In this document: piece after piece, positions 536 to 9,467 of the stretch
Position numbering within the stretch: position 1 is the first letter of the stretch
Layout of the letters: each line of letters opens with the position of its first letter
IMG/VR virus record: IMGVR_UViG_3300025449_000720
Coordinates: 1-20,832 of that record
Reading direction: 5' to 3' (one strand)
Source: a virus
DNA length: 20,832 bases
Translations under genes and position numbers: made by a program
Notes under the pieces: model-generated
The model's input: the letters and a program-made list of their open reading frames with translations, nothing else
The model's database searches: none
What the model was told of the DNA's origin: nothing

Positions 536-795
536 TTATTCTTCTTTTTTACAGTTATCCACATAAAATAATATGGATCAAACGCCCATCCGTCCGGGGG
601 ATTTAATGGATCAAATCTCTCTGGATTAACCAATGGAGTAGCCGGGTTGTGATAATACTCAATATACCTGCGTGTAATTTCTTCCCTTGCTTCCAGATCA
701 ACATATTCGTGAGCCAGTCGTCCTTCGATAACAGGATCAAACCCGTTAAACCACATCCAAGGCCAGGCCCAATGAGTAAAGAACTTTTTAATCAT
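532..795 (-). CDS. Hypothetical protein, 87 aa, aromatic-rich
   Basis: A small protein starting MIKKFFTHWAWPWMWF, with a strikingly tryptophan-rich N-terminus (four Trp in the first 17 residues), an acidic/basic middle (EAREEITRRYIEYY) and a Lys-rich end (VKKKNK). I do not recognise a family. The ATG overlaps the end of the antiporter gene by 8 bases, and its TGA overlaps the ATG of the TGT-like gene as ATGA, so all three are probably translated as one coupled unit. The N-terminus could associate with the membrane, but it is too short and too polar afterwards to call a transmembrane segment. The overlaps on both sides and the absence of a competing frame make it a likely real gene. Confidence 0.7.
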   Translation of the reverse strand: MIKKFFTHWAWPWMWFNGFDPVIEGRLAHEYVDLEAREEITRRYIEYYHNPATPLVNPERFDPLNPPDGWAFDPYYFMWITVKKKNK

Positions 796-1957
796 TGTCT
801 ATCTCTGGCTTATAAAATAATCGAGCAAGCGGTACCGCACTTACTGTACTAATTAAACTCATAATCACTACGGCAGCAAACATATTAACACTAATAACGT
901 TGGCTGTCAACAGCATAGTAACCAAGAAGATTTCCATCAGTCCTTTGTTTTGTAGCAAAGCAGTTTTAAAACAAACAACTCTGAGTCCTTGGTCCTTATA
1001 AGCTAACCAAACACCGACAAACTTAGTTCCAACAGCAATAATATACATAGCAATGGCACCTAGTAGAATAGTTTCAAAATCTAAAGTCCAACTAGTCTTT
1101 AAACCAGACCAGATAAAGAACACAGGCATTAACCAAACCATTTGCTGTTCAGCCATTCCTTCATTCCATTTAATAGTATGTCGTGGAGTAATCATACCTG
1201 CTAAGAACGCACCTAATACATAGTGTAATCCAGCCCATTGACTAAATGCCGCCATAGTCAATACCATAGCAACTGTTAAATTAGCATACGATTTTTCGCC
1301 AGCAAGTTCTAAAATCTTTGGCCAGATAAAATATAGTATTATTAATACAGCAAAAAAAATACTTGAATAGATAGCATACTTGCCCATACTAACAATAACA
1401 GCTACAGTTACCCATAGGACTAAATCGTCAAAGGTAACTAGTGCCAGTAGCTTACGACCCATGTTACTAGGCCACATGCCAATTTCTTTACAAGCAATTA
1501 CCAGCATCGGCATAGCTGTAATACAAGTTGCTACGCCCATGCCCCAAACATATTGCCAGAATGGTCGTTCTGTAGTATGCCAAACAGGATTATCAAAAAA
1601 CAATAAGAAACTACAGCCTGCTAATAAGATAGGAACAATAATAACTTGGAATGATTGTGTCCAGATACTATTACCTTCTTGTGCTATAACTTCTTTAGGT
1701 TTAAGTTCGATACCGGCAATAAAGGCAAAGATTGTAATTGCTAAAATTTGAATAGCATCTAAACCTGTCTTGATCGGCGCAGTAAAAACTGTGCTAAATA
1801 GTTCCGGATAAAACTGCCCTAGCGCACTAGGCCCAAGGCAAAGGCCAAAGGCAATTTGCGCCATTGGCAATGGAATCCACTTTTCCATTCGTGTAATTTT
1901 TAATACTAGCCACGGTACAAAGACCATGGCCGCAATAATAAACAATAAATTACCCAT
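788..1957 (-). CDS. CPA2-type cation/proton antiporter (Na+/H+ exchanger family)
   Basis: A 389-aa polytopic membrane protein with about 11-12 hydrophobic segments, close to the usual size of the transport domain of the CPA2 monovalent cation:proton antiporters (KefB/NapA-like). Family landmarks visible are GLCLGPSALG (residues 38-47), FIAGIELKP (79-87), an acidic pair D177-D178 in the segment TFDDLVLW, SQWAGLHYVLGAFLAGM (239-255) and QNKGLMEI (336-343). In this family the acidic residues in the membrane carry the cation/proton exchange. There is no C-terminal RCK/TrkA-N domain, so it is the bare transport unit. It follows the clamp gene by 45 bases and is preceded by AAGGG eight bases before its ATG. 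A transporter of this kind is unusual in a T4-like phage; it lies inside a phage-type operon and is not flanked by host genes. The direction and ion used cannot be told from sequence. Confidence 0.85.
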   Translation of the reverse strand: MGNLLFIIAAMVFVPWLVLKITRMEKWIPLPMAQIAFGLCLGPSALGQFYPELFSTVFTAPIKTGLDAIQILAITIFAFIAGIELKPKEVIAQEGNSIWTQSFQVIIVPILLAGCSFLLFFDNPVWHTTERPFWQYVWGMGVATCITAMPMLVIACKEIGMWPSNMGRKLLALVTFDDLVLWVTVAVIVSMGKYAIYSSIFFAVLIILYFIWPKILELAGEKSYANLTVAMVLTMAAFSQWAGLHYVLGAFLAGMITPRHTIKWNEGMAEQQMVWLMPVFFIWSGLKTSWTLDFETILLGAIAMYIIAVGTKFVGVWLAYKDQGLRVVCFKTALLQNKGLMEIFLVTMLLTANVISVNMFAAVVIMSLISTVSAVPLARLFYKPEIDND

Positions 1958-3711: not shown

Positions 3712-6372
3712 TTAAAACTCAAATAATGATTGGAACGTATTTTCAGTATTGGTAGCTGATGCTATATCCCACTCTAGTACACTTAATAAATTATCAATTT
3801 TTTGATCTACGATAGTAGCTTCCATTAAACTATTATCAAATGGTAAATCTTTAAACCACTGTGGTAAGTGTTGCTCGTCAGTCGGATAACCAATACTAGT
3901 CCAACCCAGCGGGTTAGATTTTAATTTACACACAATGGTTTTCATACCGTCTACGATCTGCATTGAATAGTTATCATGATTCATACGTCGAAGATTATTC
4001 CAATTGAGGGCCGCACGAACATGTCCGGGCATGTTTGTTTTTCCTTCTTGTTCTTCTTTAGCACCGTACTTGGTTAAATTATTAACACGCTTAGGAGTGC
4101 CTTTTTCCCAAGCTGGCCTTTCGGCAAACGCATATTTAAATTCTCGGATACGCTCTATAATTTCTTCTTTTGTTGTGCCAGTCAATACTTTTTCAAGTAT
4201 TTCATACAGGAAGTCTTGAATTACTTTAGGCGTATCGCTACGCTTTAAATCAAGGCCCATAGCTTTAATTTTTCCATTTGATCCATTGACATCTAAACGT
4301 TTATTTTCTAAATCATAGATTAATACAGCATATCGTTTTTTAGTAATAAACAAACTATTGGATGCAACAAGTTCACGTCCAGCTTTAATTAACTCTCCAG
4401 CTTCTCTTGGACAATGAAATGCCTGTTCCATAAATGCCGGAAAACTATCATTAACTTGATCGGCAATTGAATCATATAGTTGAATACAAATTTCTTTGCT
4501 CCACTCCATGTTGCCTTTGGCTACTTCATCTTTAATAGCAGGCCAGGCTGTAAAATAACAGGAGTCAGTATCACCGTAGATAATAGCATCACCTAAGTGA
4601 TCTTTTACACCAAATACACATTCATTTATATAGCCTGCCATATGTTTAGCAATACTACGACCTGTTAGTGTTGTAGACTGACCAATACGCTTGTCCGCAA
4701 ATCTACAATGCGGATTAAGAATTGCCCCGTATAGGCTATTCAAGTTAATTTTTTTAACCAATTGTCGTTTGTCCCAAAATGCTATTTCTTTAGGATCTGT
4801 GGCTTCTTTCTTTTTAGCTTGTAGTTCTTTTCTTTCAGAGTACCAACGTTCAAGCAATCCTGGCACAACTCCTTTACGCTCATATGTAACAATAGTGCCG
4901 TTGGCAGTTAACATCCATGGCTGATTACTATTAAAAATCATATCCCATATTTCGGCCGCAGAATGTATAGATTTATCGCCATCTTGCCAATCAATAGTAA
5001 TTTCAGTTCCTCGTTGTTGTTCCATTACTGCGGTATATTCTAAACTGGCAAATACACCTTCCCAAGCCGCCGCGAATGTTTTTTTGTGTTCAGTCACTTG
5101 CTCATCAATATAATGATTAGTCATAATTGGCCGAAGTTGCCCTACTACTGTTTCCATTCCCATATTAAGCGCACGAATGGCACTAGGGTACAAACTATTA
5201 ATATCTACGGCACCAATCCATTCATGCATACCTTTTTTAGGATATGCAACATAAGCACCGGCCGCGGCAGTTTCATCATCAGTTAAACGTTGTTGCCTAT
5301 TAGGGACAACTAGTCCACGCTCGTGCGCCTCATTAATAATGGCTTGCTCTGTCACTGCTACCGCTCCCATAGTAGTCGGCAACAACACAGTATTGGCGTG
5401 AGCTAGTTCATTTGCTAGATCTAGGAAACGTAGTTTTTTGTCTAATTTGTCGATGATTAATGTATCTTGTCGATTATATTCTATAAACTTTTTAAAGTTT
5501 TGATTATATAATTGATCTAATGTACCTTCATATTGAGTTTTATGTTCATTCAACTCATATTCGGCAATAGCATCTAGACTATAGCTATGTCTTTCTTCAT
5601 ATGTATATTTTCGATAAAGTTGCATATAATCCATATGAACACGTCCAACAATATCATAGGTAAAACTAGTAGCACCAAATCTTTCAAACTCTCTACTTTT
5701 AGGATATTGTCCCCACAGACAAAAACGCCTAGTATCATCTTTACTTAATATTTTTGTAATACGATTAATAGTATACGGTATATCATATCCTTCTGAATTC
5801 CACCCAGATAATATGTCGGCATCATCTATTAAATCTAAGAAAGTTTTGAGCATATCTTCTTCGCGCTCAAAAACAATACAATTTTCAAAATCAGCGGCAA
5901 CTTCTTGCGCTGTTTCCATACTCATGTGCTTTGGCGGTATTGCTAATGTAACCAGTTGATTGAGCCATTGCAGATATACTGAGATAGCAGTGATGCCATT
6001 GAATGGATCTGTTGTGGGAGAAAATCCTTTTTCTTTATGAAAGTCTACTTCAATATCAAAAAATGCTGTGTGTAGTTCGGGGGCATCTTTATTTTTATAG
6101 TTTTCCTCGAGACAACGAACAATGGGATTTATATCTGATTCGTATAATTGTTTTCCAGAGTGAACACGTACTTCCTTACGAAATTCTTTGTTATTGCGTG
6201 TAGAAAACCTAGAAACAGGTGTATTATATATTGATCTAAATTTTCCTCTGATATCGTCGTAATAAAAAATATATTCAGCCGGATATTCTTTATAAACTCT
6301 TTGTCCATTGATACGTTCTACAACGTGTATTCTATCATGTTCTCTATCATAGAGAGCGTCTATATAACTCAT
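3712..6372 (-). CDS. 43: Family B DNA polymerase (T4 gp43-like)
   Basis: An 886-aa replicative polymerase, near the T4 gp43 length (898 aa). The 3'-5' exonuclease is intact: Exo I FFDIEVDF (D106, E108), Exo II SGWNSEGYDIPY, Exo III EYNRQDTLIID. The polymerase motifs are intact: motif A VDINSLYPS (D390), motif B KINLNSLYGA near residue 545, and motif C YGDTDS (D601, D603). The last residues, TFQSLFEF, resemble the C-terminal clamp-binding peptide of T4/RB69 polymerase, so it should bind the gp45-like clamp encoded one gene downstream. A clear ribosome site (AAAGGA, five bases before ATG) follows a structured leader. No intein or intron interrupts it, although motif C is a frequent intein site in this family. 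Confidence 0.97.
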   Translation of the reverse strand: MSYIDALYDREHDRIHVVERINGQRVYKEYPAEYIFYYDDIRGKFRSIYNTPVSRFSTRNNKEFRKEVRVHSGKQLYESDINPIVRCLEENYKNKDAPELHTAFFDIEVDFHKEKGFSPTTDPFNGITAISVYLQWLNQLVTLAIPPKHMSMETAQEVAADFENCIVFEREEDMLKTFLDLIDDADILSGWNSEGYDIPYTINRITKILSKDDTRRFCLWGQYPKSREFERFGATSFTYDIVGRVHMDYMQLYRKYTYEERHSYSLDAIAEYELNEHKTQYEGTLDQLYNQNFKKFIEYNRQDTLIIDKLDKKLRFLDLANELAHANTVLLPTTMGAVAVTEQAIINEAHERGLVVPNRQQRLTDDETAAAGAYVAYPKKGMHEWIGAVDINSLYPSAIRALNMGMETVVGQLRPIMTNHYIDEQVTEHKKTFAAAWEGVFASLEYTAVMEQQRGTEITIDWQDGDKSIHSAAEIWDMIFNSNQPWMLTANGTIVTYERKGVVPGLLERWYSERKELQAKKKEATDPKEIAFWDKRQLVKKINLNSLYGAILNPHCRFADKRIGQSTTLTGRSIAKHMAGYINECVFGVKDHLGDAIIYGDTDSCYFTAWPAIKDEVAKGNMEWSKEICIQLYDSIADQVNDSFPAFMEQAFHCPREAGELIKAGRELVASNSLFITKKRYAVLIYDLENKRLDVNGSNGKIKAMGLDLKRSDTPKVIQDFLYEILEKVLTGTTKEEIIERIREFKYAFAERPAWEKGTPKRVNNLTKYGAKEEQEGKTNMPGHVRAALNWNNLRRMNHDNYSMQIVDGMKTIVCKLKSNPLGWTSIGYPTDEQHLPQWFKDLPFDNSLMEATIVDQKIDNLLSVLEWDIASATNTENTFQSLFEF

Positions 6373-6436: not shown

Positions 6437-7057
6437 TTATAATGATAACTTACCTAAATTTTTTCCAATAGTACCTTTAACAAATGTATTAAAAGAAAGG
6501 CTTATCCTAAGATTATCACCAATTTTGTTGTTAACTTTATGAATTAAAGTTGACGGAAATAAAAATAGCATGCCAGTGTCAACCCTAAAACTAACAGACT
6601 CGGTATTAAAATCATTGTCTTGATTGGACTCTATTTTTATAATAGGAAAATCAGTATATTTAAAAAAAGTAATAGTATCAACATTTATATCGGCATTAAT
6701 ATAAAATACCCCAGAAATTATACTATTAGAATGATGATGCATGTGATGATACTCATCTTTATTTGTATAATTTAACCAAGACTGCGTCACATATAGCTCT
6801 GTGCCTTGTTGATAACCTGCTATTTTTACTGAATAGTTTTTAATAGCGATTTCTATTTCTTTTTTTATGTTAGACATTTCAATGTTGTCTAATACATATT
6901 CATCTTCGCTTCTCCAATTTCCTTCATTTTTTAAAATTTTAGTTCTATTTTTTTCTATAAATGCTGTTTCAACTTCAGATAATGGTCTATCTATAACCGA
7001 CCTATATAACGGAGTCGGAAATAAAGAAAACGTGTATGGATCTTTTATATATGACAT
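6437..7057 (-). CDS. 2OG-Fe(II) oxygenase-like protein, tandem copy B
   Basis: A 206-aa protein of the putative 2-oxoglutarate/Fe(II) oxygenase group (Pfam 2OG-FeII_Oxy_5 type). Features are TQSWLNYT (residues 91-98), a His cluster at 104, 105 and 107-109 followed by SNSIISGVFYIN, and LFLFPSTLIHKV with H173, then R184 in LRISLSFNTF. In this fold two His of the first strand region plus the distal His hold iron and the Arg binds 2-oxoglutarate. It is a clear paralogue of the gene just upstream: both share the ELY(V/I)TQSWLN block, the His block, the FPST..H block and the IGK.L.KL.L C-terminus. Two bases separate them. The substrate is unknown; hydroxylation of a protein or small molecule is possible. 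Confidence 0.75.
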   Translation of the reverse strand: MSYIKDPYTFSLFPTPLYRSVIDRPLSEVETAFIEKNRTKILKNEGNWRSEDEYVLDNIEMSNIKKEIEIAIKNYSVKIAGYQQGTELYVTQSWLNYTNKDEYHHMHHHSNSIISGVFYINADINVDTITFFKYTDFPIIKIESNQDNDFNTESVSFRVDTGMLFLFPSTLIHKVNNKIGDNLRISLSFNTFVKGTIGKNLGKLSL

Positions 7058-7059
7058 AA

Positions 7060-7677
7060 TTATAGTTCTAATTTACTTAGCCCTTTACCAATATTACCTT
7101 TTATAAAAGTATTAAAGGAAATACTTTCTCTATATATGCTACTCACAGTCGTCGAAACTTCGTGGTATAATGTTGAAGGAAATAATAATAAAAGTTTATT
7201 TTTTACATTAATTGTCCAAGATGTCGAATTAAATCGATTAAATGATATTGGTTCGGGAAGTATTTCATTAATGCCTGCCGGGTTATGAAAAATTATTTCA
7301 TCTGTCTTTTCATCAACATTAACATAAAATACTCCGGAGATTATACTATTTGGATGTTTGTGATGATGATGATGCCCCCCAGGAGCGGTAATATTTAACC
7401 AAGATTGTGTGATGTACAATTCGTTGTTTTTGGGCCATTGGTAAATATCATGTACATAGTTATTAACTAACTCTGTAAATTCAGATTTAAGATTTCTCAT
7501 TGCTAAATTATCTAACAAATGATCATCGACAGATAGATAATTTCCAATATTTTTTTTTAATTTATTTTCATTTCGCAATGAACTTAAAAAACTTTCTTCT
7601 TCGGTGATGAATTCTCGGTCAAGAATTCCTTGAAATATCGGAGTCGAAAATATTGGCTCTATAATTAAATCTTTCAT
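7060..7677 (-). CDS. 2OG-Fe(II) oxygenase-like protein, tandem copy A
   Basis: A 205-aa paralogue of the downstream gene. The core is ITQSWLNITAPGG (residues 89-101), then five consecutive His (102-106) and H108 before PNSIISGVFYVN, a LLLLFPSTLYHEV segment with H172, and R183 in the RESISFNTFIKG end block. These are the expected iron and 2-oxoglutarate ligands of the 2OG-FeII_Oxy_5 type fold. The N-terminus (PIFSTPIFQG) also matches the usual start of this family. No Shine-Dalgarno sequence is visible; the ATG lies eight bases after the DsbA-like gene, so translation may be coupled. The two copies have diverged strongly outside the core, which suggests an old duplication and different substrates. 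Confidence 0.75.
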   Translation of the reverse strand: MKDLIIEPIFSTPIFQGILDREFITEEESFLSSLRNENKLKKNIGNYLSVDDHLLDNLAMRNLKSEFTELVNNYVHDIYQWPKNNELYITQSWLNITAPGGHHHHHKHPNSIISGVFYVNVDEKTDEIIFHNPAGINEILPEPISFNRFNSTSWTINVKNKLLLLFPSTLYHEVSTTVSSIYRESISFNTFIKGNIGKGLSKLEL

Positions 7678-8096: not shown

Positions 8097-9467
8097 CTAT
8101 TCAAAGCTAAACAAAGTGTTGATTGGATCTGATGATTCCGTAGGTAACAAATTGCTTCCTTTATTTCTATAATAAGTTTCGTTATAACTATGTAATATTT
8201 CTACAGAGTCAATGACAGGTATTTTCAGCATCTTATAAATTTCATCTGTACAGAAAGATGCTTGACTTTTAGTAAAATCTTCGTGTTTAACTAATCCGGT
8301 AATTTCTAATTCTTTATAAAAATTATTTTTTGGTATAGTATTGATTTTAGTATGCTCAGTTAATTTCACTAATTGTTTACGAATATTTTGATCACGTTCA
8401 GTTAGTGACTTCTGAGTAGCTTCGCTAACTCCCAACCCATACACTTGTTTGAGTACTTCGGCCACTTCTGATTCTTCTACAATCAACGCATAGTCTTTGT
8501 GAGCTACACTCCACTCATTTTTACTGAGCAAAACTGTTGGGCAAGTATGAGCAGTTTCTAAGACACCTAACCCAAATGTTTCGCTGATTGCGGGGTGATA
8601 AGCAGCCGCTAGACTTTGTATTATATTTGTTTTTTCCTGGGCTGTAACTCCAACGTATATTTTATAATCTATTTTTTCTTCTTTAAATCTTTGCTCAAAC
8701 TTTTTGGCACTTGTATCAGATGGAACTAGTACAACCCCTGGTAAATTAGTAGCTTTTAATGCCGCAATATAAGCTTCTGGATTTTTCCTTGGTTCCCAAG
8801 GGCCAATAAATCCTACTCCCCACCGCTTTTCGGGTAGTGTTGCGAAGTCAAGTAATTCTGGTTCCGGCACTAATGGATTAACAACTAAACATTCATCAAC
8901 TTTATTCAAGTATTGTGCTTGAGCATTCTTTTGTACCCAATTACTTTGACAAGCAAGTAATACATCTGGTAAACTACACAGTGCTCGATATTGATCCGTT
9001 ACGCCTGGGGAAAATATATCATGTTTGACAGGCAAGCCTGCTTCAGACTCATGATGAGTTGGATGAAGTACTGTACAATATTTGTGCACGCCAATGCTGG
9101 TAACCGCATCTAAGGCTTCACCGACATTGGTAATGATTAAATCATACGTGTGTTTACGCAATGCTTCTATTAACGCATTTCTAAAGTTGAGACTCAGTGT
9201 AGTATCAAATGGTTTAGAAAAACTACTAAGTTCTTTATAAATTCTATCGTCAATATAAGTTGCAGGTTGAATCCATTGTACACGATTTCGATATTGATCA
9301 AATAATCCGTTATCTCTTACGGCAGCATCTGATATAATATCAATATGATAACCTTCCCTTAATGCCCAATCAATGATGCTTTTAGCGTAGGCACCGACCC
9401 CACGATATACAAAATTGTTTTTGGCAACTAGCATGCCAATTCTTTTAGTTACTTTTAATGTTGTCAT
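8097..9467 (-). CDS. GT-B glycosyltransferase (family 4-like)
   Basis: A 456-aa retaining-type glycosyltransferase. The N-terminal Rossmann domain starts KRIGMLVAKNNFVYRGVGAY (residues 8-27), with the glycine turn that binds the acceptor side. The C-terminal domain opens at VGFIGPWEPRKNPEAYI (residues 218-234) and carries the E-x7-E signature SETFGLGVLE (E296, E304), which contacts the sugar nucleotide in GT4 enzymes. The last ~100 residues are an extra helical tail of unknown role. The substrate is unknown: phage DNA, a virion protein or the host surface are all possible. A TTGCTG/TACAAT pair with 17-base spacing ends only five bases before the ATG, so the transcript would be leaderless unless Met12 (9434) is the real start. 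Confidence 0.85.
   Translation of the reverse strand: MTTLKVTKRIGMLVAKNNFVYRGVGAYAKSIIDWALREGYHIDIISDAAVRDNGLFDQYRNRVQWIQPATYIDDRIYKELSSFSKPFDTTLSLNFRNALIEALRKHTYDLIITNVGEALDAVTSIGVHKYCTVLHPTHHESEAGLPVKHDIFSPGVTDQYRALCSLPDVLLACQSNWVQKNAQAQYLNKVDECLVVNPLVPEPELLDFATLPEKRWGVGFIGPWEPRKNPEAYIAALKATNLPGVVLVPSDTSAKKFEQRFKEEKIDYKIYVGVTAQEKTNIIQSLAAAYHPAISETFGLGVLETAHTCPTVLLSKNEWSVAHKDYALIVEESEVAEVLKQVYGLGVSEATQKSLTERDQNIRKQLVKLTEHTKINTIPKNNFYKELEITGLVKHEDFTKSQASFCTDEIYKMLKIPVIDSVEILHSYNETYYRNKGSNLLPTESSDPINTLFSFE

Follow-up and report, generated by a model that had tools for sequence, protein, structure and literature searches.

Gene-for-gene exchange of a predicted NapA-type cation/proton antiporter with other genes in phages

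What is known of how phages influence the ion balance of their hosts comes mostly from holins, channels, and exclusion proteins. In the cation/proton antiporter family that includes NapA of Thermus thermophilus, the cation and protons are bound by a pair of aspartates and a lysine, the last of which is associated with electrogenic exchange. From metagenomes, estuarine viral contigs have been listed with genes for a K+(Na+)/H+ antiporter, an Na+/phosphate symporter, and MscL (PMC13288924), and in an overview of 224 jumbo phages, the words antiporter and transporter are absent (PMC7824862). A limited search of openly licensed papers found none on the exchange of such genes. Here, we describe a phage-borne antiporter gene whose exchange for either of two other genes is the main point of the analysis, one that the first-pass annotation of this DNA missed.

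The window, that is, the whole stretch of DNA analyzed, is a virus record of 20,832 bases whose long genes all lie on one strand. The antiporter gene (family c0; 389 amino acids with an ATG start) occupies positions 788 to 1957 on the minus strand, the strand of all features given below. Its upstream flank is a sliding clamp gene (2003 to 2725; phrog_12062), whose product shares 30% identity (E = 3e-34) with the protein annotated as the clamp in Sinorhizobium phage Phosso. In the window, 45 nt separate the clamp stop from the antiporter start; in several relatives, the two overlap. Beyond the clamp lies a gene for a family B DNA polymerase (3712 to 6372; PF00136; phrog_262, E = 9e-191), a predicted product that marks the phage origin of the window. 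It is 46 to 49% identical to the polymerases of the nearest GenBank phages, Phosso (49%) and Agrobacterium phage Atu_ph07, both with genomes of ∼470 to 490 kb. The clamp and polymerase beside the antiporter thus point to a tailed phage with a large genome, of which the window is most probably a piece. On the other side, the start of a small gene, c4 (532 to 795; 87 amino acids), lies over the last 8 nt of the antiporter gene. The c4 protein has a short, hydrophobic/aromatic N terminus and no Pfam or PHROG match, and a search with it found 53 viral contigs. The downstream flank, c7 (2 to 535), is the start of a gene whose protein is cut by the window end. It keeps the same position in relatives, where this conserved phage protein reaches ∼510 to 570 amino acids. 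A Pfam search gave no match for c7, and a relationship to tRNA-guanine transglycosylases, proposed from a motif, was not confirmed on checking.

Elsewhere in the window, the DNA repeat CAAGGTGTGGCGGAAGG or close variants of it occur in nine copies on the minus strand inside three large ORFs (at about 20736, 20328, 20121, 19980, 19725, 16384, 15997, 11792, and 11660). The repeat mostly translates to QGVAEG, is conserved at the DNA level, and was not found in ten stretches of related contigs that were checked. There are also two adjacent, similar ORFs at 6437 to 7677, one of which matches a PHROG 2OG-Fe(II) oxygenase family, and a 456-amino-acid ORF at 8097 to 9467 that looks glycosyltransferase-like by eye and had no match in a PHROG search.

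The first-pass annotation had recognized a full-length CPA2-type antiporter with an intact acidic pair, D177-D178, and our results agree. The protein matches PF00999 (Na_H_Exchanger) over residues 9 to 372 with an E value of 4e-23 and 82.3 bits, against a gathering cutoff of 26.2. Its match to TIGR00932, the CPA2 model of NCBIfam (E = 3.2e-20), reaches 72.8 bits, below the curated cutoff of 238.3, and the protein is thus related to this model without being assigned to that subfamily. The AlphaFold model (pLDDT 81, pTM 0.79) has NapA as its top match both in Foldseek (E = 2e-10) and in VIA-align (Z = 33.8; 3.8 Å over 360 residues), and its predicted helices are broken at residues 146 to 148 and 336 to 340, as expected for the discontinuous TM4 and TM11. 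When aligned by sequence to NapA chains, D177-D178 (codons at 1424 to 1429) match D156-D157 of NapA, and K312 (codon at 1022 to 1024) matches the TM10 lysine, K305. The aspartate pair and the lysine are invariant across the 16 phage relatives aligned. The protein stops after the membrane domain, PF00999 is the sole domain found, and because there is no C-terminal nucleotide/glutathione-binding (RCK) domain, its control is not of the KefC kind. As a predicted activity, antiport is well supported by this anatomy, and the gene product is very probably a working antiporter, although the preference for Na+ or K+ cannot be read from the sequence.

Relatives of the antiporter are found on 33 other viral contigs, the sizes of which include 345, 345, 262, 199, 158, and 133 kb, and the full-length relatives that were aligned are 58 to 96% identical to the window antiporter. 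The neighborhood of clamp and antiporter is repeated in 11 other contigs, which come from several metagenomes (L026, L027, L031, L033, L034, L038, L040, L042, L018, L011, and L045). PF00999 genes are common in bacteria, so bacterial contamination or a chimeric contig could in principle have placed one here. However, this explanation is refuted by the repetition of the junction in many contigs, and the polymerase and clamp beside the gene and the single clade of phage antiporters also speak against it, leaving it a negligible probability. Likewise, an assembly join at 1957 to 2003, which the first-pass annotation had raised as a concern, does not apply, as the junction of clamp and antiporter recurs in those 11 contigs.

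In a tree built from 22 phage and 17 cellular proteins, the phage antiporters form one clade (support 100/100). The first-pass annotation had proposed phylogeny as a way to the donor and the host. These cannot be inferred, because the cellular relatives found by pairwise search (28 to 31% identity) all fall outside the phage clade, and no donor was found among those tested. Scanning 84,980 species genomes under strict criteria gave no relative, and a Variovorax homolog, followed as a donor lead, returned only its own relatives when used for scanning. In a profile search of 398 genomes, covering Pseudomonadota only, the best score was ∼200 bits, compared with 650 to 750 bits within the phage clade. 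Among described viruses, the 50,697 GenBank phage records gave only three matches, at ∼24% identity and from unannotated fecal records; there is no PHROG family for the antiporter; and a fold search of BFVD, which holds predicted viral protein structures, gave no CPA-type match.

Eight pairs of antiporters have pairwise dN/dS values of 0.055 to 0.126, and the antiporter is under purifying selection. It thus has the genomic properties of a putative auxiliary metabolic gene, being a host-type gene that is intact in phage genomes, under purifying selection, and in one clade. The gene can also be lost, since three near-identical loci (L020, L047, and L048) keep only the last ∼142 antiporter residues within an open frame of ∼160 codons, and in the two remnant records that were scanned, the profile match runs through two TGA codons in frame, upstream of the remnant. 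This remnant is a decaying copy of the antiporter.

The first-pass annotation had also tied the antiporter to replication genes, and this link does not survive comparison. Antiporters that are 87 to 96% identical adjoin clamp, QueE-like, ThyX, or helicase-like genes, and there are at least eight neighborhood changes on the antiporter tree. Clustering of neighbor genes places the antiporter in at least six gene neighborhoods. With X as the occupant, these are polymerase-clamp-X-(c4)-c7 (neighborhood A), QueE-like c14-(c21)-(c4 or c57)-X-c11 (B), ThyX-c82-(c4)-X-c17 (C), (c4)-X-c65-c48-TMBIM (D), a position near a peroxiredoxin and an AhpD-like gene (E), and c15-X-c95 (F). The peroxiredoxin and AhpD/CMD-like genes lie near the antiporter in viral contigs L035, L043, and L037, and the Bax-inhibitor-1 (TMBIM, PF01027) membrane gene lies near the slot of neighborhood D in L041, L046, L049, L187, and L213.

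Tracing the slot occupants by searches with the c4, n1, clamp, and TSUP proteins revealed that X is the antiporter, n1, or TSUP in neighborhoods A, B, and C, and the antiporter or n1 in D and F. At one locus only (L166), an MFS transporter follows c4. The protein n1 has 117 amino acids and four membrane-length helices and is found at ∼169 loci in many gene neighborhoods (e.g., L171:2121-2471 and L255:2501-2851). The TSUP (TauE/SafE-type) transporter is the occupant in 22 viral contigs; characterized members of its family transport anions or organosulfur compounds.

Three pairs of loci capture the exchange itself. Between L006, with the antiporter, and L255, with n1, DNA identity is 89.8% across 1,688 bp on one flank, which stops 1 bp short of the start codon, and 93.4% across 1,118 bp on the other, which starts 9 nt ahead of the ORF end. 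In L008 (antiporter) and L253 (n1), the flanks are 84.2% and 94.9% identical in DNA, and in L028 (antiporter) and L203 (TSUP), they are 92.3% identical over 521 bp and 93.6% identical over 1,573 bp. In all three cases, each in a different neighborhood, one gene has recently been replaced by another from its start codon to its stop codon, and more distant pairs in the clamp slot show the same pattern. The edges of the swaps follow ORF boundaries, as seen in a search by eye for a conserved DNA signal. Looking for the gene in related phages, as had been suggested, thus gave a divided answer, with the antiporter present in other viral contigs but replaced by n1 or TSUP in near-identical relatives.

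Among all loci gathered, many of which overlap or repeat a contig, no viral locus has two tenants. Where whole-record searches of large contigs found a tenant, it was of one kind alone, the antiporter in 10 contigs, n1 in 9, and TSUP in 7; for TSUP, these searches covered some but not all of the antiporter and n1 records. Another TSUP record, G422, has neither the antiporter nor n1. However, the loci were collected by way of one tenant, a sample that does not give base rates, and several of the contigs, which are linear and possibly incomplete, are fragments. The mutual exclusion of tenants is therefore weak as statistics alone and supports the reading without proving it. All three tenants are absent from eight large contigs of related phages, and so the function of the slot is accessory rather than essential.

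It is also possible that these slots are insertion hot spots, with the antiporter, TSUP, and n1 as independent morons that share entry points and may do different jobs. This is the main rival explanation, and for the clamp slot, the hot spot is real. T4-like phages are known for variable regions with accessory genes, and in relatives of the window phage, the interval between clamp and c7 also holds sulfotransferase-like and methyltransferase-like genes (both named by eye), a kinase gene, or a DUF2061 gene, or nothing at all. Since soluble genes also enter this site, and 42 of 80 clamp loci have nothing there, it is at least a general insertion point, and an obligatory slot is ruled out. However, independent morons do not readily account for the recurrence of the same families in at least three slots (all three tenants) or five (the antiporter and n1), nor for exact replacement in place of insertion beside the old gene. 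In addition, c4 and DUF2061 genes share the site with a tenant, yet two tenants never do. We therefore regard hot spots as a serious but improbable explanation of the whole pattern. The gene c4 itself is a frequent neighbor of the slot, including when the occupant is n1 or TSUP. Since it occurs with these tenants and sometimes with no tenant, and is missing from many antiporter loci, a role as a dedicated subunit of the antiporter can be ruled out.

The widespread tenant n1 had no match in Pfam, PHROG, GenBank phages, plasmids, or the cellular genomes searched (Pseudomonadota). Its predicted model (pLDDT 87) resembles SemiSWEET over residues 38 to 117 with a Z score of 5.8, compared with 4.7 for unrelated rows, and its Foldseek E values are all above 4, so the likeness to SemiSWEET transporters is weak and may be taken as a hint only. 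Comparison with the antiporter did not reveal n1 to be a homolog of any part of it. Superinfection-exclusion genes, such as imm of T4, typically encode small membrane proteins that are interchangeable within a fixed slot, and n1 is small and carries no transport annotation. The tenants might then act at the membrane to block superinfection or to counter membrane-targeting host defenses, with transport secondary. However, n1 is 64 to 95% identical across neighborhoods, with a mean column identity of 79%, and is not diversifying as an exclusion factor would. The strict conservation of the antiporter aspartates and lysine and the low dN/dS also indicate that transport chemistry is kept. Altogether, exclusion or protection seems very unlikely.

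We favor, with a probability of about 0.58, the reading that an electrogenic cation/proton antiporter is one alternative tenant of a single phage membrane function that adjusts the infected cell. Once expressed during infection, the CPA2 NapA-type protein would insert into the host inner membrane and exchange protons for Na+ (or K+) by a two-aspartate/lysine elevator mechanism. With its putative substrate and direction, this exchange could shift the infected cell's ion content, pH, or membrane energy, and we see about an even chance that the antiporter helps the phage through such ion or pH control. It would be one of several alternative tenants of a membrane-protein slot in at least five neighborhoods of large phages, where the tenants (the antiporter, TSUP, n1, and once an MFS transporter) are swapped gene for gene and were not seen together. 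It is somewhat less likely than not that n1 and TSUP meet the same need as the antiporter. It is likewise rather doubtful that a single-copy membrane function is filled by these structurally unrelated proteins, displacing each other across several genome locations.

Even so, the exchange pattern suggests that these phages need one membrane function, which they fill in different ways. If this is true, managing the flux of ions or solutes in the host would be a regular and replaceable function for some phages, and n1, not yet described, would represent a phage-made transporter or ion pathway of minimal size. Tenant swapping also offers a route to the role of the widespread and unannotated n1, by complementing one tenant with another.

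How does this compare with known systems? The estuarine viral genes (PMC13288924) are likewise phage-borne cation/proton antiporter genes from metagenomes, but the list in which they appear is one of annotations tied to salinity and does not itself describe a phage-specific clade, a slot, or an exchange. The TSUP family (TauE/SafE, PF01925) shares the slots of the antiporter as an alternative tenant but is unrelated to it as a family. The K+/H+ exchanger KefC (PDB 8bxg) shares the fold of the transport domain (Z = 26.8), but it has a ligand-binding C-terminal domain that the phage protein lacks, and NapA is the closer match. The CPA2 Na+/H+ antiporter NapA of T. thermophilus (PDB 4bwz and 5bz2) is only ∼19% identical to the protein described here, which is phage encoded and has a predicted substrate. 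In contrast to this low identity, the two proteins share the full-length fold, the aspartate pair, the TM10 lysine, the length, and the absence of a C-terminal regulatory domain.
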